A DNA stretch of 43,432 nucleotides from Selenomonadales bacterium (GTDB taxonomy: Bacteria > Bacillota > UBA994). The notes beneath the pieces were generated by a model. That model worked only from the letters and a program-made list of their open reading frames with translations. It did no database searches and was not told the DNA's origin. The DNA is taken from contig JAGXRZ010000002.1 in assembly GCA_018335585.1 (NCBI GenBank), positions 1 to 43,432 on the forward strand, given 5' to 3'. The translations under genes were made by a program, and so were the position numbers. The number at the start of each line of letters is the position of its first letter. Positions within the stretch are counted from its first letter, which is position 1. This document shows positions 1 to 32,345 of this stretch, one piece after another.

Positions 1-256
1 CCCCGGGGAGCTTGCACCTAACTCGCTATCACGCTAGATGCAATCTTGCCTTCTGCCGCACTGAAAGCATCGGCACTCCCATCGCTGCACTATTTCGGGG
101 CTCAATACCTTCACCTTTCGATTTCGGCCTGCTAGCTTGCTTGCCTACGCTTAAACGCAGTGGTTACCCCTTGCGCTCCAAGGCTAGCTATGGGTGGTTA
201 GCTATTCCTTTCCCAGCGGGATTCGCACCCGCTATGTAGTGCGACCTTGCTCGGTC
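1..256 (-). mobile_element. 5' part of a probable group II intron RNA (cut by window edge)
   Basis: Read on the minus strand this stretch is a dense set of short helices, not a protein gene. It has a hairpin with AGCGGG/CCCGCT arms near 220-238, paired AGCTA/TAGCT segments near 185-205, and purine-rich strings such as GCAGGCCGAAA and GGGAGTGCCG that I associate with domain I of bacterial group II introns. A GCGACC/GGTCGC hairpin at 241-258 lies just before its 5' end, the kind of site class C introns choose. The rest of the intron and any reverse transcriptase would lie outside the window to the left. The assignment is from remembered sequence character only; another structured RNA is possible. 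Confidence 0.5.
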
Positions 257-261
257 GCTCC

Positions 262-471
262 AGTGCTTAGTGCTCAGTGCTCAGTAGCTTACGGCGTACG
301 GCTTACAGCGTACAGCTGAAAGCCACTCGCTGGCAAATTGAAAGACCTCTCCTCTAACGCCTAAAGCCTATAAGCTGAGTGCTGACCGCCGAGAGCCGAT
401 AGCCCTCTCCCCGCAGTTCACGATTCATGATTCATGATTCACGATTGCTCACAGCTCACTGCTCACTGCTC
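262..471. repeat. Heptad repeat array A (30 x 7 bp)
   Basis: Thirty consecutive 7-bp words can be laid out without losing register: AGTGCTT/AGTGCTC words, then TACGGCG/TACAGCG words, a diverged middle, then ATTCATG/ATTCACG words and finally ACTGCTC words. Neighbouring words differ by one or two bases while the consensus shifts along the array. The last two to three words run into the 3' end of hutH. The arrays at 20465 and 31141 carry related blocks. Confidence 0.85.
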
Positions 472-1997
472 AACCTCACCAACTCGCCCGTGAAGCGCTC
501 TACCTCTGCCTGTAGTTCACCGGACTGCAGGAGAGCGTAGGCGGCGTTAAGGTCGGGGTACAGGACGCGGTCTTCTTTAAGCGTAGGTACGACTCGCCGT
601 AGGCAGTCGTAGGCTAGGCTGCTCGCGGGAGATAACTCGCCACCTGCCTGTAAGTCTATCGCCTGGCAGGCGGCCAATAACTCGATGCCTAGCACGCGCA
701 TAGTGTTCTCGGCAATTTGGCGCACTTTGCGGCAAGCCACCCCACCCATGCTCACATGATCCTCCTGATTAGCGCTTGAAGGAATGGAGTCCACACTCGC
801 AGGGTGACTTAGTACTTTGTTCTCAGATACTAATGCCGCCGCTGTGTACTGAGTAATCATTAGGCCCGAGTTAAGGCCGCCGTGCCGTGTCAGGAAGGCA
901 GGGAGTCCCGAAAGCTGCGGGTTAACCAGGCGCTCTATCCTGCGCTCGGAGATGTTCGCGAGTTCGGCCACAGCCAGCGCGAGGTAATCCGCGGCCAGCG
1001 CCAGAAATTCGCCGTGGAAATTGCCGCCGGAAATAACTTCGCCGTCGGCCGGGAAAACCAGTGGATTATCGGTCGCGGAGTTGCACTCGATAAGGAGAGT
1101 GTTGGCCACGTGCGCGAGCGCGTGCCAACACGCCCCATGCACCTGCGGGATACACCTTAGCGCGTATGCATCCTGCACACGCACCTCTCCCGGTAGGGTG
1201 ACAAGCGTGCTGCCAAGCAGCAACGTGCGCATCACCTCGGCCGCCTGCGCTTGTGTCGGGTGCGGGCGCACGGCACAGAGGCGCGCGTCAAAAGCGGCGG
1301 TAATGCCGCGCAAAGCCTGGTGACTAAGGCTCGCGGTAATAAAGCTGGCTTTAAGGGCCGTAAGGGCATCCAAAACGGCGAGGCTAAGATTCGCGGCCAT
1401 GGCCTGTGTGCCGTTAATTAGGGCGAGGCCTTCTTTGGCTGCCAAAGCGATAGGAGTTATGTTACGAGTAGCAAGTGCTTCCCGGCCCGACATGACTTGG
1501 CCGTCAACTTCTGCTTCGCCCTCGCCAATCATCACGAGCACAACGTGCGCTAAAGGCGCGAGGTCCCCGCTTGCCCCTAATGACCCTTGGGCGGGCACAA
1601 TGGGGTGAACACCCGCATTGAGCATGGCCAGCAGGCTCTCGACTGTACTCATGCGCACGCCGGAAAATCCTTTCGCCAGCGCATTCGCGCGCAGCAGCAT
1701 CAGCGCACGCACCGTCTCGGTCGGCAGAGGCGGCCCGACTCCGCAAGCGTGGCTGACGATAAGGTTGCGCTGTAGGGCAGCCGTCTGCTCACGACTGATG
1801 GACACTTCGGCAAACTTACCGAAGCCGGTCGTAATCCCATAGACCGGGCGGCCCTCTTGTACGTACGCGTCGACTAAGCGCCGCGCGGCATCAATGCGCT
1901 CTGGCGTGCCGGGGCCAAGCGACACCGGCGCGCGCTCGCGGCTGACGGCCCTAATCTCGGCGAGCGTCAGGGAATCTCCGGAAATAGTTACCTTCAT
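456..1997 (-). CDS. hutH: Histidine ammonia-lyase
   Basis: Deaminates L-histidine to urocanate and ammonia, the first step of histidine degradation, in the cytoplasm. The 513-residue length is normal. The Ala-Ser-Gly triad that cyclises into the MIO electrophile is at residues 142-144, and the conserved YGITTGFG segment with the catalytic Tyr is at 53-60, both where they are in the well-studied Pseudomonas enzyme. A GGGGTG ribosome site precedes the ATG. No hutU, hutI or regulator is next to it, so it stands alone here. Its last residues (SSEQ) and stop codon are encoded by words of heptad array A, so the C-terminus has been shaped by the repeat. Confidence 0.95.
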   Translation of the reverse strand: MKVTISGDSLTLAEIRAVSRERAPVSLGPGTPERIDAARRLVDAYVQEGRPVYGITTGFGKFAEVSISREQTAALQRNLIVSHACGVGPPLPTETVRALMLLRANALAKGFSGVRMSTVESLLAMLNAGVHPIVPAQGSLGASGDLAPLAHVVLVMIGEGEAEVDGQVMSGREALATRNITPIALAAKEGLALINGTQAMAANLSLAVLDALTALKASFITASLSHQALRGITAAFDARLCAVRPHPTQAQAAEVMRTLLLGSTLVTLPGEVRVQDAYALRCIPQVHGACWHALAHVANTLLIECNSATDNPLVFPADGEVISGGNFHGEFLALAADYLALAVAELANISERRIERLVNPQLSGLPAFLTRHGGLNSGLMITQYTAAALVSENKVLSHPASVDSIPSSANQEDHVSMGGVACRKVRQIAENTMRVLGIELLAACQAIDLQAGGELSPASSLAYDCLRRVVPTLKEDRVLYPDLNAAYALLQSGELQAEVERFTGELVRLSSEQ

Positions 1998-4656: not shown

Positions 4657-6077
4657 GTATTCTTCCCCCCATGCAGGTACGTTAACTTAAATACGTACCC
4701 TAATCTAGTTTCCGGCACGCGAAATTCCTCGGCAATGCGGAGCCCAGGCACCCACACCACCCTGCCGTCGGCGACGACGACAGGGAGCCTATCCCGCCAG
4801 GGCAAGGGAATCTCGGCCTCACTCATGGACCGCTTGAGCTTCTTATGTCCTGACGCTCCTAAAGGTATGTACGTGTCGCCGGGCCGGCGGTTTCGCACCT
4901 TAAGCAAATGATTTAATCCGGCAACATAAGCCACCGGGGCAGAGGGCGGCGGGTAGCCTGCCGGCAGATGCTCCACCGGCTCCGCCGTAAGCGTGCTGCC
5001 GTCCGGCAAAGTCACCTCGCCGGGCAGGGTCAGCTCTAGCTCAAAAGGCGTGTCCGGCTCGCGCCGCTCGCGATAGAACACAAGGCAGTCGCGCGTGCGC
5101 AGTGCGGTAATATGGCCCGGCAAGTGGATTCTGCGCCCGGTCTGGCTGTTAAGCAGCCTCCGGCACGCTTCAATATGCACGGTCTCTAGGTCACCCTCCC
5201 CCTCGCGCTCCTTTGCGTATGCCCACGCGAGCAGACGCGCTCCGAGCGCGCGATGGCAAGCGAGCAGAACATCCGCCCGCAACCCCGTGCCATAGGGCAA
5301 CGACCGATACGACTCCTGCCAAGGCGAAGCTGCCTGCAGAGAGATATAGTCGTCGGCCGCGCGGGCGTGGTCCCCCACCCTAAGCAGGGCTCCCGCTACG
5401 TCACTGTTTATCCCGCTAAGCAGCGGCAAAACCTCGTGGCGCACCAGATTGCGGCGGTACTTGGTATCTAAGTTTGTGTAATCCTCCCTATATCCTTGCC
5501 CACGCTCCGCCAAAAAAGCCAGAATATCCACTCTGTCGACAGAGAGCAGAGGGCGAATAAGCGTAAGGCCAAAAAGTCCGCGCTCAAGCGGCTTCATGCC
5601 GGCAAGTCCCTGCAGGCCGGTGCCCCGAATCAGGTTAAGGAGTATTGTTTCGACTTGGTCCCCCTGATGGTGGGCCAACGCAATTTTATTCTGTCCTTGT
5701 TCGCGACAGATTGCGGCAAAGAAGCGAAAGCGCTCCGCACGCGCCGCCTGCTGCAGGGATTCATGACTCTCTTTGCGTCGCGCGGCTACGTCAACTTTGC
5801 CTATCATTACCGGGATTGCCAAGCGGGCGCACAAATCAGCCACAAAGTGCGCATCTTCATCTGCCGCTTGCCCTCGCAACCCGTGATTAAGATGCGCAAC
5901 GGTTAGCTTAACAGCCAAGGGCGCGGCAAGTTCGCAGAGGCACAGCAACAAGGCGACTGAGTCTGCCCCGCCGGAGACTCCGACGAGCAGGTGGTCGCCA
6001 TGGCTGATGATACTCTGCTCCGCGACAAACTGCCTTACCGCCTGCGCTACGTCCGCACGTGCTTTAGTCCTTTCCAT
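4644..6077 (-). CDS. tilS: tRNA(Ile)-lysidine synthetase
   Basis: Modifies C34 of the CAU-anticodon isoleucine tRNA to lysidine so that it reads AUA. The N-type ATP pyrophosphatase motif SGGADS lies at residues 35-40 of the 477-residue form. A TilS substrate-binding and C-terminal domain follow, with the RRPGD segment of the family near residue 415. The frame stays open upstream to a GTG at 6131, but that codon lies inside the hairpin terminator after spoIIE and would sit in its stem. The ATG at 6077, with AGG four bases upstream, is the better start. Expression may rely on a promoter between the terminator and 6077 or on read-through. Confidence 0.93.
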   Translation of the reverse strand: MERTKARADVAQAVRQFVAEQSIISHGDHLLVGVSGGADSVALLLCLCELAAPLAVKLTVAHLNHGLRGQAADEDAHFVADLCARLAIPVMIGKVDVAARRKESHESLQQAARAERFRFFAAICREQGQNKIALAHHQGDQVETILLNLIRGTGLQGLAGMKPLERGLFGLTLIRPLLSVDRVDILAFLAERGQGYREDYTNLDTKYRRNLVRHEVLPLLSGINSDVAGALLRVGDHARAADDYISLQAASPWQESYRSLPYGTGLRADVLLACHRALGARLLAWAYAKEREGEGDLETVHIEACRRLLNSQTGRRIHLPGHITALRTRDCLVFYRERREPDTPFELELTLPGEVTLPDGSTLTAEPVEHLPAGYPPPSAPVAYVAGLNHLLKVRNRRPGDTYIPLGASGHKKLKRSMSEAEIPLPWRDRLPVVVADGRVVWVPGLRIAEEFRVPETRLGYVFKLTYLHGGKNTCNN

Positions 6078-20424: not shown

Positions 20425-20464
20425 TGCATGTAGAGGCCGTCGGCCGTGAGCGGTGGACTGGGGC

Positions 20465-20653
20465 AATCACGAATCAGGAATCGTGAATCATGAACTGCAA
20501 TGACGGGAGTGGCTCTCCGCTTTCCGCCCTCCGCTGTACGCCGTACGCCGTAAGCAATCATGAATCATGAATCAGGAATCGTGAACAAGGAAGGGGCACC
20601 GGGCACCCCTCCCGTTTCCCCTAAGTGCGAAGTGCCAAGTGCAAAGTGCTAGT
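20465..20653. repeat. Heptad repeat array B (27 x 7 bp)
   Basis: Twenty-seven 7-bp words in unbroken register: AATCACG/AATCATG words, TCTCCGC/TTTCCGC words, CGTACGC words, AATCATG words again, G/C-rich words, then TGCGAAG/TGCCAAG words. Read in reverse complement it shows the TACGGCG block followed by the TTCATGATTCACGA block, as in arrays A and D. It fills most of the 327-bp gap between the S1 gene promoter and divIC. Confidence 0.85.
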
Positions 20654-20680
20654 GAAGCAAAAAGCTCCGTCCCTTTTGCT

Positions 20681-21046
20681 TCACTCACTGGGGCCGCGGG
20701 GGGTTACGAAAATGGGTGAGAAAATCTTGTCCTGTGGCAAGAGTAGGCCGAGGCGCTCGCGCGCTTCGCGCTCAATGTAGGCGTCGGTACTCTGGCGTGC
20801 AATTTCGCGCTGTAGACGAGCAGACTCCTGCTGCAACGCTGCCACTTGGGCGCGCAACTCGGCTTCGGCGCGGCGAAGCTGAAGCATTTCTATTTCTTGG
20901 TTAACATACACGACCATAAAGTAGGCCACGATGGCACACAAGCAACACAAAACCCAAGGCACCCGCCTGCGCTGCTTGCGCTTAGCTTTTAACGGTTGCC
21001 TAACGGGGAACGACACGATTTTCGGCAGGGCATGTGTGCTTGACAT
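20681..21046 (-). CDS. divIC: Septum formation initiator DivIC/FtsB family
   Basis: Small bitopic division protein that joins FtsL and DivIB at the septum. It has a basic cytoplasmic N-terminus, one membrane helix at about residues 29-47 (VPWVLCCLCAIVAYFMVVYV) and then a coiled coil rich in Leu, Glu and Gln (about 50-85). The C-terminal EREARERLGL segment is typical of the family. The ATG at 21046 lies six bases after GGAGG, whereas the upstream TTG (21061) and ATG (21052) overlap that site. Neighbours yabQ and yabP match the conserved order. Confidence 0.9.
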   Translation of the reverse strand: MSSTHALPKIVSFPVRQPLKAKRKQRRRVPWVLCCLCAIVAYFMVVYVNQEIEMLQLRRAEAELRAQVAALQQESARLQREIARQSTDAYIEREARERLGLLLPQDKIFSPIFVTPRGPSE

Positions 21047-21074: not shown

Positions 21075-21491
21075 TTACTTCTCTAGTTCGCGGGCTTTTC
21101 CTGCTATGCGCGAGAATATTTTTGCTTTCTGCGCCATGCCTAACAGGACACGTAAAAAACGAACCACGCGCAAGAGAGGCCATGCCATTACCCCTCCCAA
21201 CACGTCCGCGATGGCGGCAAGAGCCGTGACAACCACGCGCAGCAGTTTGGCTGATAAGCCCAGGGCGGCCAAGCCTAGGCGCCTGACATAATGCCCGATG
21301 GCCAGCTGCTCTGCGCCTACGCCGACGGCTAGCGCCAAGCCCATATAAGCCCGAACACCGGCGGAACTTGCCAAGAGATACTGAAAAGCAAGTAGGGCAC
21401 ATACTCCCCAAAAAATGAGGTCGAGTAGCGCCGCCAAGTACTTCCCGGGGTTAAATATGACAGAGACGACCCTATACAGGTCAATGGCCAC
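21075..21491 (-). CDS. yabQ: Spore cortex biosynthesis protein YabQ
   Basis: Membrane protein needed for spore cortex formation. Several hydrophobic helices and the DLYRV segment at its N-terminus match the family, as does its place between yabP and divIC. The first usual start is the GTG at 21491, but it has no clear ribosome site. The reading frame continues upstream to about 21560 with residues (EEQVARLAEILTLGVVLGVA) that look like the missing first membrane helix of YabQ. No ATG, GTG or TTG occurs in that extension before a stop, so either an unusual start (for example ACG at 21560, six bases after GGGGGTGG) or a sequence error must be involved. Confidence 0.8.
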   Translation of the reverse strand: MAIDLYRVVSVIFNPGKYLAALLDLIFWGVCALLAFQYLLASSAGVRAYMGLALAVGVGAEQLAIGHYVRRLGLAALGLSAKLLRVVVTALAAIADVLGGVMAWPLLRVVRFLRVLLGMAQKAKIFSRIAGKARELEK

Positions 21492-26831: not shown

Positions 26832-26867
26832 TATCACCCTTCCCTCTACGTGAAACCCCAAATCCAC

Positions 26868-26951
26868 TCTTGCTTCTTGCTTGTTTCCTATTGCCTCTTG
26901 TATGCTAGCAGCCCCACTTGCTACTGGGCACTGAGCACTGGGCACTGGGCA
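26868..26951. repeat. Heptad repeat array C (12 x 7 bp)
   Basis: Twelve 7-bp words in register: TCTTGCT words, a diverged middle, then CTGGGCA/CTGAGCA words. It fills the 131-bp gap between mfd and the PpiC gene. It is shorter than the other arrays and lacks their TACGGCG and TTCATGA blocks. Confidence 0.7.
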
Positions 26952-26962
26952 CCCTTCCCAGA

Positions 26963-29900
26963 TCACGCCAACAGCCTAAGCGCCTTAGTTAACCGCTGTA
27001 CTTGTGCTGCCAGTTCGCCGTGCCCGCGCCAGAGCAGCGCATGCCCCTTGTGGTTCTCTACGGCTATCTCCTTATATTCCTGGAAAGCCCGCATAATGGC
27101 GCTCGCGTCAATCCGCGTGGCGGGTGAAAGCTTAAGCGTAATCGCTTGGTCGGTGCCTACTATACTCATGACGCCTAATTTCCCCGCGATAAGCTTTAAG
27201 CGGGCGACGTTAAGTAGGTTGTTTACCGGCTCGCTAGGCTCCCCATAGCGGTCAATCAGCTCATCTACCACATCGTCTAGCTCTGCTTCACTGTTTGCTG
27301 CGGCCACACGCTTGTACATTTCGATTTTTTGGCGCGAATCGCGGATGTACCGGCCTGGGAAGAACGCGTCTACCGGGAGCTTAATCTCCACTTCTACCGG
27401 TTTGACCGGCGTTATGCCGCGCAAGTTCTGAATTTCTTCTTCGAGCATCTGACAGTACAAGTCAAAGCCAACCGAGGCCATAAAGCCGTGCTGTTCCGGA
27501 CCTAGGAGATTGCCCGCGCCGCGGATTTCTAGGTCCCGCAGGGCAATCTTAAACCCGGCACCTAACTGCGTAAACTCCCTAAGCGCGCTTAGTCGCTTCT
27601 CGGCCACTTCGGTTAAGTTCTTCTCCGGATGATAAGTAAGGTAGCTGTATCCTACGCGCGTAGCCCGCCCTACGCGCCCGCGTAGCTGATAGAGCTGCGC
27701 TAGGCCGAACTTATCCGCGTCCTCCACAATTATGGTGTTCACATTAGGGATGTCTAGCCCGGACTCAATGATGGTCGTACTTAATAGGATGTCATACTCA
27801 CCCTCGAGGAAGTCAAGGAAAATGCGCTCTAGTTTCTCTTCCCCCATCTGACCGTGACCGATGGCAATGCGGGCATTTGGCACCAGGTTTTGCAGATGTG
27901 CGGCTACACTCTTAATCGTACGCACTCTGTTGTGGACGTAATACACTTGCCCGCCTCGCTCAAGCTCCCTTTCAATCGCGTGTTTTATCGCGCTGTCGTG
28001 GTATTCGCACACGTACGTCTGCACGGGATAACGGTCCTCAGGCGGGGTCTCGATTACGCTCACATCCCTAAGCCCCACCATGGCCATATGTAGCGTGCGC
28101 GGAATCGGGGTAGCTGACAGCGTCAGGACATCTACGTCGTGCTTAAGCATCTTTACTTTTTCTTTGTGTTGCACACCAAAGCGCTGTTCCTCGTCGATAA
28201 TCAGGAGGCCTAGGTCTTTAAACCGCACGTCGGCGCCAAGTAAGCGGTGTGTGCCGATAGCTAGGTCGACCGCCCCGGCAGCAATGCGTTTGGCTGTCTG
28301 CTTGTTGTCCTTGGTACCTTTAAAGCGGCTAAGTACAGCTACTTCAATGGGGAAACCGGCAAAGCGCTCGCGAAAAGTGTGAAAATGCTGCTCCGCAAGA
28401 ATGGTCGTAGGCACAAGCACCGCCACTTGTTTTCCGTCTAGGATAGCCTTAAAGGCGGCGCGCACAGCCACCTCGGTCTTGCCGTAGCCGACGTCCCCGC
28501 AGAGGAGTCGCTCCATGACCTTAGGCGTCTCCATATCTCGCTTGACTTCTTCGATGCTGCGCAGTTGGTCCGGAGTCTCGACGTAGGGGAAATTGTCTTC
28601 CATTTCCTTTTGCCAAGGTTTGTCGGGGCCAAATGCATACCCGGGGACTGAGGCGCGCCCGGCATAGAGAGCAACGAGCTCCGCAGCCATCTTCTGCACA
28701 GATTCCTTGACTCTTACCTTAGTTTTGGCCCACTCGGTATTGCCAAGCGAGTGCACTTTGGGTTCCTTGCCCTCGGCCCCCACGTATTTCTGCATTAAGT
28801 GCATTTGGTCGGTGGGGACATAGAGTTTGTCTTCCCCGCTGTAGTTTATCTCAATGTAATCCCTCTCTACCCCGCCGACCTGCAAGCTGCGTATTCCTAA
28901 GTATTTGCCGATGCCGTGGTGTACGTGCACGACGTAATCTCCGGGGACTAGGTCGCGATGCGACAAGAGACGCGCCCCTTCGGCCGCCGCCTTCGGCTGG
29001 CGCCGCCTGCGGGCTCGTGTCTTGCCCGAGACATCTCCCTCGGCTAGAATGAACAACTTGGCGTCAGGAAGCTCAAGCCCTTCTTCTAGCTCCGCGCTGA
29101 TGACAGCAAATACCCCACGCGGCGGCAATGTGTTCTCTGCCCAGAGTACCGCCTCGATGTCGGCCTCCCGCAGTTGCCGCACCAGTTCACTTTGCCGCTG
29201 TGGCGAACTAGCCGCGAGCAACAGCCGATACCCCGACTGCGTGAGCCGGCGGATGTCCTTGCGCAAGAGGTCGAGCTGGCCCCAGTAGCTCGGGGGAGTC
29301 TTCTGCAAGACGGCCAGTTGTGCGTTTATGCGAAAACGCGCCGGCCGCTTGGGCAAGGTGGCTAACAACACCGTTGGGAAGCGCTCTAGGGCGTGGATTA
29401 GCTCGAAATCTTGCAGAAAGGCTTTATGCTGCGCGGGAAGAATTTGCCCGCCCATTAGCATAGCCGCGTACTGCTCTTTTAGGTCACGCGCCGCACCTTC
29501 GGCTTTTTCGATGAGCCGGGTCGGCTCGTCTAGCACCACTACCGTATCGGCCGGCAGGTAATCCAACATGGTGGCTGCGTCGTCAAGGAAGAAAGGCCAG
29601 TACCGCATTCTCCCCGGAAACGAGACGCCGTTTTGCAGCCGCTCGCAGTCCTGCTCGATATTCTTTTTCAGCAGCCGCCCGCGCTCGACATCAAGGGAGG
29701 CTGAAGCTGTCTTAAGCGATGCTCGAATTTTCTCAAGACCTGCTTTAGTCTGGCTCTCCGGCCAAAACACCTCTACGGCAGGCGGCAAAATAACGCTAGC
29801 TTTGTTTAACTGCGAGCGCTGTGTCGTTAAATCGTAGACTCGGATGGAGTCGACTGTGTCCCCAAAGAACTCCAGCCGCACAGGCTCTTGGCCGCTGAGA

Positions 29901-30539: not shown

Positions 30540-31109
30540 CTATTTTGCACAACTATTATGTCGATTAGCCGCTGTCTCTACCCCATACAGCACAAATGTT
30601 TCCACCGCTTCTATGGCACGCTCCACGGTGCGCGCGAACAACGCCTTCTCGTCCTCGCTAAAGCGCTCCAACACATAGTCTTCGGTAGAAACGCCTAAGG
30701 GCGGCCTGCCTATGCCAACCCGCAAGCGCGCGAACTCAGTCGTGCCAAGGCAGTCGGCAATGCTTTGCAGGCCCTTCTGCCCACCCGCGCCGCCTTGGGC
30801 GCGGATACGCAGGCTGCCTAGCGGCAAATCAAGGTCATCGCTAATCACTAGCATGTCACTTAGGTCGATGTCTAGCCTCGCTACCGCAGCCTTAACGGCC
30901 TGCCCCGAGCGATTCATAAAGGTCAGCGGTTGCTGCAAGTAGACGCCGACACCGCAAATCTTGCCGCGCCCAAGCAGCGACTGGTGCGTGTTCATACTTA
31001 CACGCACACCATGTTTGGCGGCGAGCGCGGCTAGCACAGCAAACCCGGCATTGTGGCGCGTGCCGGAATACTCACTGCCCGGGTTTCCTAGACCGACGAT
31101 TAGTTTCAA
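30540..31109 (-). CDS. pth: Peptidyl-tRNA hydrolase
   Basis: Releases peptides from peptidyl-tRNAs that drop off the ribosome. The 189-residue protein begins KLIVGLGNPG and has the catalytic His19 in TRHNAGF, Asn68 in FMNRSG and Asp93 in the ISDDLDLP segment. The start is TTG at 31109, seven bases after GGAGG. The frame stays open far upstream only because it passes through heptad array D. Its place between prs and mfd is conserved. Confidence 0.95.
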   Translation of the reverse strand: MKLIVGLGNPGSEYSGTRHNAGFAVLAALAAKHGVRVSMNTHQSLLGRGKICGVGVYLQQPLTFMNRSGQAVKAAVARLDIDLSDMLVISDDLDLPLGSLRIRAQGGAGGQKGLQSIADCLGTTEFARLRVGIGRPPLGVSTEDYVLERFSEDEKALFARTVERAIEAVETFVLYGVETAANRHNSCAK

Positions 31110-31140
31110 GGGGGCACCTCCGTTTCGTGGAGGGGCTACC

Positions 31141-31357
31141 AGCCGCCGGCCGCCGGCCGCCAGGAGTAGGGAGCGTGCTCCGTGCTTCGTGCTTCGTGCT
31201 CCGTAGCTGATGGCATACGGCGCACAGCTTACAGCGGAAAGCGGAAAGCCGCTCCGCCGTTGCAGTTCATGATTCACGATTCACGATTCATGATTGCCCC
31301 GCTCACAGTTCACAGCTCACAGCTCACAGCTCACAGCTGGCGGCTGGCGGCTCACGG
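31141..31357. repeat. Heptad repeat array D (31 x 7 bp)
   Basis: Thirty-one 7-bp words in unbroken register: GGCCGCC words, TGCTTCG/TGCTCCG words, CGGCGCA/CAGCTTA words, TCATGAT/TCACGAT words, then CTCACAG and CTGGCGG words. It fills nearly the whole prs-pth gap and ends four bases before the prs stop codon. This is the clearest of the four arrays. Confidence 0.9.
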
Positions 31358-31360
31358 CCC

Positions 31361-32311
31361 TTAATCAAACAACTTACTTACCGATAAATCCTCATAGATG
31401 CGCAGTATGGCGTCTCCAAACAACGGGGCCACGGGGAGCACGGTAAATTTGGCAATCTGCTTGTCCGCGGGGAGAGGGATAGTGTCCGTGATTACCACTT
31501 CCGTTACCGGTGATGCCGCAAGGCGAGTCACTGCCGGCCCGGACAAGACGGCGTGCGTGCAACAGGCATAAACTTCGCTAGCACCGTGCGCAAGCAGCGC
31601 TTCTGCCCCTAAAGTGATTGTGCCGGCCGTATCGATAATGTCGTCAATCATAATGACGCGCTTGCCACGTATGCGCCCGATAATGTTCATAACTTCGGCG
31701 ACATTAGGCTCGGGGCGCCGCTTGTCAATGATGGCGATATCTACCCCAAGGCGGTTGGCCAAATCGCGCGCGCGCGTCACGCCGCCAAGGTCAGGCGATA
31801 CGACAACCATATCCTGCAGGCCTTTACTTTTGAAGTACTCGGCTAAGATAGGGACACCCGGCAGATGATCCACCGGAATGTCAAAAAACCCTTGGATTTG
31901 CCCGGCATGCAAGTCCATGGCCAATACGCGGTCTACTCCCGCTGTGGTCAATAAGTTGGCTGTAAGCTTGGCGGTAATAGGGTCTCTGGCCCTGGTCTTC
32001 CGGTCTTGTCTGGCGTAACCGTAATAGGGAATAACCGCCGTAATCCGGCGCGCCGAAGCGCGGCGCAGGGCGTCAATCATAATCAGGAGTTCCATTAGGT
32101 GCTCGTTAACGGGGGTCGAGGTGGGCTGCACGACAAATATATCCGCGCCGCGCACGCTCTCTTCAATCCGCACATGCACTTCGCCGTCGCTAAACCGCAT
32201 TACCTGCCCCTGCCCTAAGGGTATCCCTAGATGTTCAGCAATTTGTTTGGCCAAGGCGGGGTTAGCATTGCCGGTGAAGATCTTAAGTCGTCTGTCAGGA
32301 TATGCGATCAA
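31361..32311 (-). CDS. prs: Ribose-phosphate pyrophosphokinase
   Basis: Makes PRPP from ribose 5-phosphate and ATP for nucleotide, histidine and tryptophan synthesis. Typical segments are the flexible loop region [31 protein letters not shown], and the PRPP-binding loop [11 protein letters not shown]. The TTG at 32311 has GAGGAG eight bases upstream and gives the usual short N-terminus before LKIF. A GTG three codons earlier abuts that ribosome site. It follows glmU with a short gap, as in most Bacillota. Confidence 0.96.
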
Positions 32312-32345
32312 TCTGCCCACTCCTCACTACGCTACGCACTGTATT

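Follow-up and report, generated by a model that had tools for sequence, protein, structure and literature searches.

The spacer between prs and pth in this Selenomonadales bacterium is filled by an array of 7-nt repeats. This array is probably a truncated example of a dispersed composite repeat, non-coding and about 400 bases long. Judging from the sequences compared here, the composite repeat is likely to have spread recently and to have been reshaped internally through slippage in steps of 7 nt and the deletion of blocks. The new part is the fixed order of many heptad words; heptad repeats themselves are a known bacterial class. Below, the window is the whole stretch of 43,432 nt that was analysed, G000 is its genome, about half of which was read directly, and G001 to G007 are the family genomes compared with it, all as draft assemblies.

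Period-7 signal in the window and beyond

At positions 31141-31357, bases matched at lag 7 in 139 of 210 positions, compared with a mean of 55.6 (s.d. 6.3, maximum 83) in shuffled sequences, so that the strong period 7 described in the initial annotation was borne out. Identity within the array was 0.66, 0.55, 0.47 and 0.34 at lags of 7, 14, 21 and 28, respectively, and about 0.17-0.34 at the remaining lags. The array occupied the spacer from immediately behind the stop codon of prs up to the vicinity of the pth ribosome-binding site. Its parts and flanking genes were as follows.

31122-31385, minus strand (forward orientation): the array, one composite-repeat copy; edges from the lag-7 scan, slightly into prs
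31361-32320, minus strand: prs, ribose-phosphate pyrophosphokinase, flanking (Pfam PF13793, PF14572)
31336-31353, minus strand: block M2, CGCCAGC (sequence and parsing)
31301-31336, minus strand: block M3, TGTGAGC (sequence and parsing)
31265-31296, minus strand: block M4, ATCGTGA or ATCATGA, flanked by the linkers GGGGCA and ACTGC (sequence and parsing; linker counts)
31233-31257, minus strand: block M7, TTTCCGC (sequence and parsing)
31205-31234, minus strand: block M8, TGTAAGC, TGTGCGC or CGTATGC (sequence reading)
31172-31204, minus strand: block M12, ACGAAGC or ACGGAGC (sequence and parsing)
31138-31165, plus strand: block M2, inverted, at the array end (sequence and parsing)
30540-31109, minus strand: pth, peptidyl-tRNA hydrolase, flanking (Pfam PF01195)

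The lag-7 scan detected four arrays within the window; parsing resolved the blocks of the second and third copies.

250-491, minus strand: second copy, M3-M4-(M5, M6)-M8-M11, order as in the prs-pth array; adjoins an aromatic amino acid lyase gene (Pfam PF00221)
20429-20666, plus strand: third copy, M4-M7-M8-M4-M14
26834-26985, plus strand: fourth, short copy, M15-M11; peptidyl-prolyl isomerase gene on one side and mfd on the other, with the orthologous spacer of G003 empty

In the 1.10 Mb of G000 that were scanned, 130 lag-7 segments were found, whereas lags of 5, 6, 8, 9 and 10 gave 0-5. The congener G003 (0.91 Mb scanned) gave 39 lag-7 segments versus 0-4 at control lags. The initial annotation had staked its claim on a period-7 excess and on further copies in the genome, and both were present. 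The excess is not general, because 1.4 Mb surrounding prs homologues in other genomes yielded 4 segments at lag 7 versus 10 at lag 6. Drifting period-7 arrays alone are no evidence for a new polymerase or scaffold.

Two neighbouring elements were seen beside the window arrays. Positions 1-225 on the minus strand, at the contig end, held the 5' portion of one group II intron (RF02005, 136.5 bits); just upstream of it lay the hairpin GCGACC-GAGCAA-GGTCGC, with the array beyond. A hairpin repeat, GTGAAGCAAAAAGCTCCGTCCCTTTTGCTTCAC, occurred once next to the third array, at 20652-20684.

Blocks, phase and slippage

The arrays were built of blocks, each a short run of one word, separated by linkers of irregular length. 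A division into 31 consecutive heptads with no slip had been proposed for the prs-pth gap, but it follows only from the length of the interval (217 = 31 x 7): the GC anchors of successive blocks on the minus strand lay in phases 1, 1, 5, 6 and 3. Throughout G000, the phase changed at most boundaries between single-word blocks, and 31 of 139 adjacent block pairs were in phase compared with about 20 expected. A strict heptad register was thus rejected. Nor did neighbouring words always differ by one or two bases, as several junctions of the prs-pth array shared only 1-2 of 7 bases, and the palindromes TCATGA and GTAC, said to recur once per heptad, were confined to particular words (ATCATGA and TGTACGC). 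Because phase is not maintained from block to block, a protein scaffold stepping by 7 nt is without support.

Within blocks, the marks of slippage were clear. Run lengths ranged from 2 to 16 words, identity decayed from 0.59 at lag 7 to 0.50, 0.42 and 0.35 at lags 14, 21 and 28 (n = 71), and a higher-order array with a 14-nt unit was found at C20:1-269 of G000. The argument that slippage cannot change a motif in register was therefore mistaken; 7-nt slippage and point mutation suffice within a block.

Words, order and linkers of the composite repeat

When the arrays were set in one orientation, they shared a vocabulary of about 14 words: M1 TTGTCGC, M2 CGCCAGC, M3 TGTGAGC, M4 ATCGTGA/ATCATGA, M5 ACTCAGC, M6 TTTAGGC, M7 TTTCCGC, M8 TGTAAGC, M9 GGTTAAA, M11 ACTGGGC/ACTGAGC, M12 ACGAAGC, M13 CAGGAGC and M14 TAAGTGC, with CTCTTGC (M15) in some arrays. 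M10 was a unique linker (CACTGCGACACCGCTCT). The majority of words took the form NNNNNGC once aligned at GC. The longest copy, at C10:38297-38671 on the minus strand, ran from M1 to M14 with few blocks absent and was the sole near-full-length copy; nearly all other arrays were ordered subsets of its series.

The order was examined across G000, where 286 ordered block pairs ran with the majority order and 19 against it; when blocks were shuffled inside arrays, 215 pairs ran with it on average and never more than 234. The parser words were picked after the arrays had been read, and the block counts depend on that choice whereas the order test does not. Paired blocks had the same orientation in 318 cases and opposite orientations in 50. 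The order was less extreme in G003, where 39 pairs kept to the majority order against 3 exceptions and permutations reached at most 38; the two genomes agreed in 31 of 34 testable pairs. Linkers were conserved as well: over 825 kb and allowing at most 3 mismatches, CACTGCGACACCGCTCTACTGGGCAC had 9 matches and its reversed string 0, and GGGGCAATCATGAATC had 29 matches and its reversed string 2. A few arrays, including that between prs and pth, started with M2 and finished with an inverted M2; most arrays had no terminal inverted repeats.

These results bear on the idea that the arrays are independent microsatellites, in which polymerase slippage would have grown the runs of each spacer separately and similar words would be convergent. 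The slippage marks within blocks agree with it, as does the report that heptanucleotides are the commonest long simple repeats in most bacterial genomes, for which a 7-nt slippage preference was proposed (Mrazek et al. 2007, as cited in PMC4679880 and PMC4692102). It is contradicted by the fixed order, the common orientation and the non-repetitive linkers, and by the sister-genus copy; all of these demand common descent, and we consider the idea scarcely credible.

A third dispersed repeat, mainly palindromic (TAGGGACGTGCC...GGCACGTCCGCGGACGTGCGAACGCACGTCCCTA), was observed within two heptad arrays of G000 (L059, C40 at about 21300-21355, and L072, C23 at about 5920-5975).

Gain and turnover at orthologous spacers

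An alignment of orthologous gaps had been proposed earlier; carried out between genomes of the genus, it revealed presence and absence of arrays at the same sites. The prs-pth gap was about 250 nt in G000 and about 20-30 nt, free of heptads, in G001, G002 and G003. In 23 syntenic comparisons picked for an array in G000, the G003 spacer lacked a heptad signal in 11 and had one in 12. Among 212 orthologous spacers not picked for arrays, 186 had an array in neither genome, 14 in G000 only, 3 in G003 only and 9 in both. Spacers with an array only in G000 measured 262 nt compared with 81 nt in G003, and array-free spacers measured 80 nt in both; spacers with an array were about 180 nt longer. At sites shared by the two genomes, block content differed and the orientation was inverted at some.

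Turnover was also seen within G000. The RAYT-like genes on C60 and C64 are paralogs with flanks of about 400 nt each that are 96-97% identical, but the arrays in the spacer before them differed and measured about 310 and 130 nt. The content of the arrays thus turns over at a far higher rate than the sequence around them.

On another account, old arrays would occupy an unchanging set of spacers, where rapid slippage and gene conversion between arrays would swap blocks and keep the order. Co-occupancy far above chance favours it, since 9 of the 12 array-bearing spacers of G003 also carried an array in G000 (odds ratio 40); the different arrays in the same spacer of the C60/C64 paralogs are likewise consistent with it, and in Xanthomonas heptad repeats between the same genes are reported to be highly variable in length and sequence (PMC4692102). 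However, the short, heptad-free spacers of G003 and the length gain described above, together with the opposite orientations at some shared sites, speak against it, and the seeding of new sites would be left unexplained. We regard this account as rather unlikely.

The comparisons show directly the shared words, order and linkers, the turnover and a gain of arrays at numerous sites in recent times. According to the favoured reading, that of a dispersed composite repeat, copies would enter intergenic spacers in either orientation, each arriving as a unit. As the copies suggest, 7-nt slippage would alter the number of words within blocks, and deletion between similar words would remove whole blocks with the order kept. 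Spacers would tolerate the insertions, and arrays would thereby build up between genes. Orthologous full and empty sites offer a natural series for separating 7-nt slippage, block loss and insertion.

Distribution across genomes

With the near-full-length copy C10:38297-38671 as query against the eight family genomes, composite-repeat matches numbered 69 in G000, 16 in G003, 12 in G002, 5 in G005 and 1 in G004, and zero in G001, G006 and G007. The single locus of G004 (L162), a sister genus whose prs is 84% identical, carried M1-M2-M3-M9-M14 in the same order. Counts of word patterns were in line with these matches: trimers of M8 numbered 51 in G000, 37 in G003 and zero in the 13 other genomes of the class; trimers of M11 numbered 144 in G000, 12 in G003, 3 in G002 and 9 in G005. 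Among 398 genomes of the phylum outside the family, 4 matched, each across one short word run only. One genome would thus have been invaded about 200 times, with few or zero copies detected in its closest relatives.

Two other explanations were rejected. An assembly artefact was discarded on the grounds that separately assembled genomes carry arrays at syntenic positions, and viral carriage on the grounds that, although viral contigs matched the patterns exactly 13 and 2 times, none of the matching loci held a lag-7 array.

Placement of the arrays and possible function

The 1.10 Mb of G000 contained 93 merged arrays, which extrapolates to about 200 genome-wide. With genes called by a simple codon-usage script, array midpoints fell inside called genes in 3 of 93 cases, compared with a random expectation of 89%. 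The spacers lay between co-directional genes in 61 cases, divergent genes in 16 and convergent genes in 10. Of the spacers that were 200 nt or longer, 160 in all, 63 held an array. The median distance from the scan edge of an array to the nearest stop codon was 5 nt.

This intergenic position close to stop codons would fit a functional element placed after genes, such as a protein-binding array, an RNA element or a terminator. Against it, the repeat lay on the gene strand in 26 co-directional spacers and on the opposite strand in 34, so strand-specific placement was rejected. Folding gave no general signal (median z -0.53 and -0.58 by strand; n = 40, 12 shuffles each), the exceptions being arrays that contain inverted blocks, and a hairpin function in RNA or DNA was rejected with z-scores centred near zero. 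The arrays gave no match in Rfam, and the orthologous spacers beside the same genes are often array-free. We therefore give a functional element little probability. The lack of a fold signal, strand preference or Rfam match, together with the absence from many orthologous spacers, points to a tolerated repeat. These data argue for a selfish-looking repeat family and not a regulatory device, although single copies may have a function.

Candidate mobilisers

Of the sources suggested in the initial annotation, only a mobile repeat is supported, and that indirectly, by the many copies, both orientations, fixed order, empty orthologous gaps and copy in another genus. The evidence stops short of strict transposition, because the analysis turned up no enzyme that would mobilise the arrays, no duplicated target sites and, for most arrays, no terminal inverted repeats; at the empty sites of G003, where flank identity is roughly 70-85%, no duplication was discernible.

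Copying by a template-switching polymerase, also suggested there, found no support, since the assembly contains no reverse transcriptase (no match to RVT_1 in the G000 draft). Matches to group II intron domain V lay near contig starts of G000, and with intron pieces at contig ends the intron reverse transcriptase may be missing from the assembly. Intron number does not track the arrays, as G006 had 13 intron matches and zero composite-repeat matches. A further possibility is a new kind of mobile DNA with a chain of heptad blocks as its body, spread by an enzyme whose copying or recombination advances 7 nt at a time and which would so also make the words; this we consider highly improbable.

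RAYT was rejected as a mobiliser. Genes for Y1 transposases were present in all eight family genomes, including G001, which had no composite-repeat match, and those inspected in G000 have hairpin repeats of their own. The RAYT-like genes on C60 and C64 were flanked by GTGAAGCAAAAGGGACGGAGC-type hairpins, and arrays adjoined these and many other genes. The 14-mer AAAAGGGACGGAGC, a hairpin core, had 80 matches in G000, including both sides of the C60/C64 genes, and this hairpin repeat is probably their REP. Two identical reading frames for a Y1 transposase of 282 residues were observed in G000 at C33:14516-14851 and C52:82208-82543 (L302 and L303), flanked by another short repeat, of the GAACAAAAGGGACGGTTCTTC type.

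Comparison with known repeats

STRR are heptanucleotide repeats of heterocystous cyanobacteria. The initial annotation knew of no equivalent in a spore-forming member of the Bacillota; that comparison was too narrow. In the majority of bacterial genomes studied by Mrazek et al. 2007 (as cited in PMC4679880 and PMC4692102), the most frequent long simple repeats are reported to be those with units of seven nucleotides. These LSSR resemble the present arrays in their 7-nt unit, intergenic position and slippage-variable run length, but are runs of one word, whereas about 14 ordered words with conserved linkers are dispersed here as a whole. Head-to-tail repetition of a single unit, which defines LSSR and STRR, was found within blocks only, as a whole array strings together several words and shifts phase between them; length variation through slippage was evident from run lengths, lag decay and the 14-nt array, as a comparative signature only.

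The P6b element of the Nostoc tRNA-Leu intron contains degenerate heptad repeats that base-pair into a hairpin (PMC3488679). Like STRR, it shares with the arrays degenerate 7-nt repeats of variable copy number in non-coding DNA, but the arrays have no general fold. Marine Beggiatoaceae have abundant intergenic heptamers, namely direct repeats of the one invariant word TAACTGA, mostly a handful of copies directly before a start codon (PMC4679880); the arrays differ in their many other words, both orientations and occupation of whole spacers, and do not belong to that type. Geobacter metallireducens has heptad-containing repeat families (GGACCGG x4 and MTYCTGA x5), which are likewise multi-copy dispersed elements with tandem heptads, but these have a single word per family, and an ordered composite was not reported (PMC2700814).

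REP/RAYT systems and MITEs are similarly short, dispersed, non-coding and intergenic, with lineage-specific bursts, whereas the arrays lack a general palindrome and most of them have no terminal inverted repeats. The dispersed presence and absence at orthologous sites that is typical of MITEs was found for the arrays. The palindromic repeat flanking a RAYT (Y1) gene that is typical of REP was not, as the arrays have no general fold. Searches of the open-access literature turned up no ordered composite built from many heptad words. The composite repeat joins simple sequence repeats and dispersed mobile repeats, which are usually studied separately.

Short degenerate heptad arrays of other words were observed in a deltaproteobacterial, a cyanobacterial and a clostridial MAG (L143:9761-9863, L151:10929-11009 and L088:8338-8414, respectively), which suggests that drifting heptad arrays occur elsewhere.
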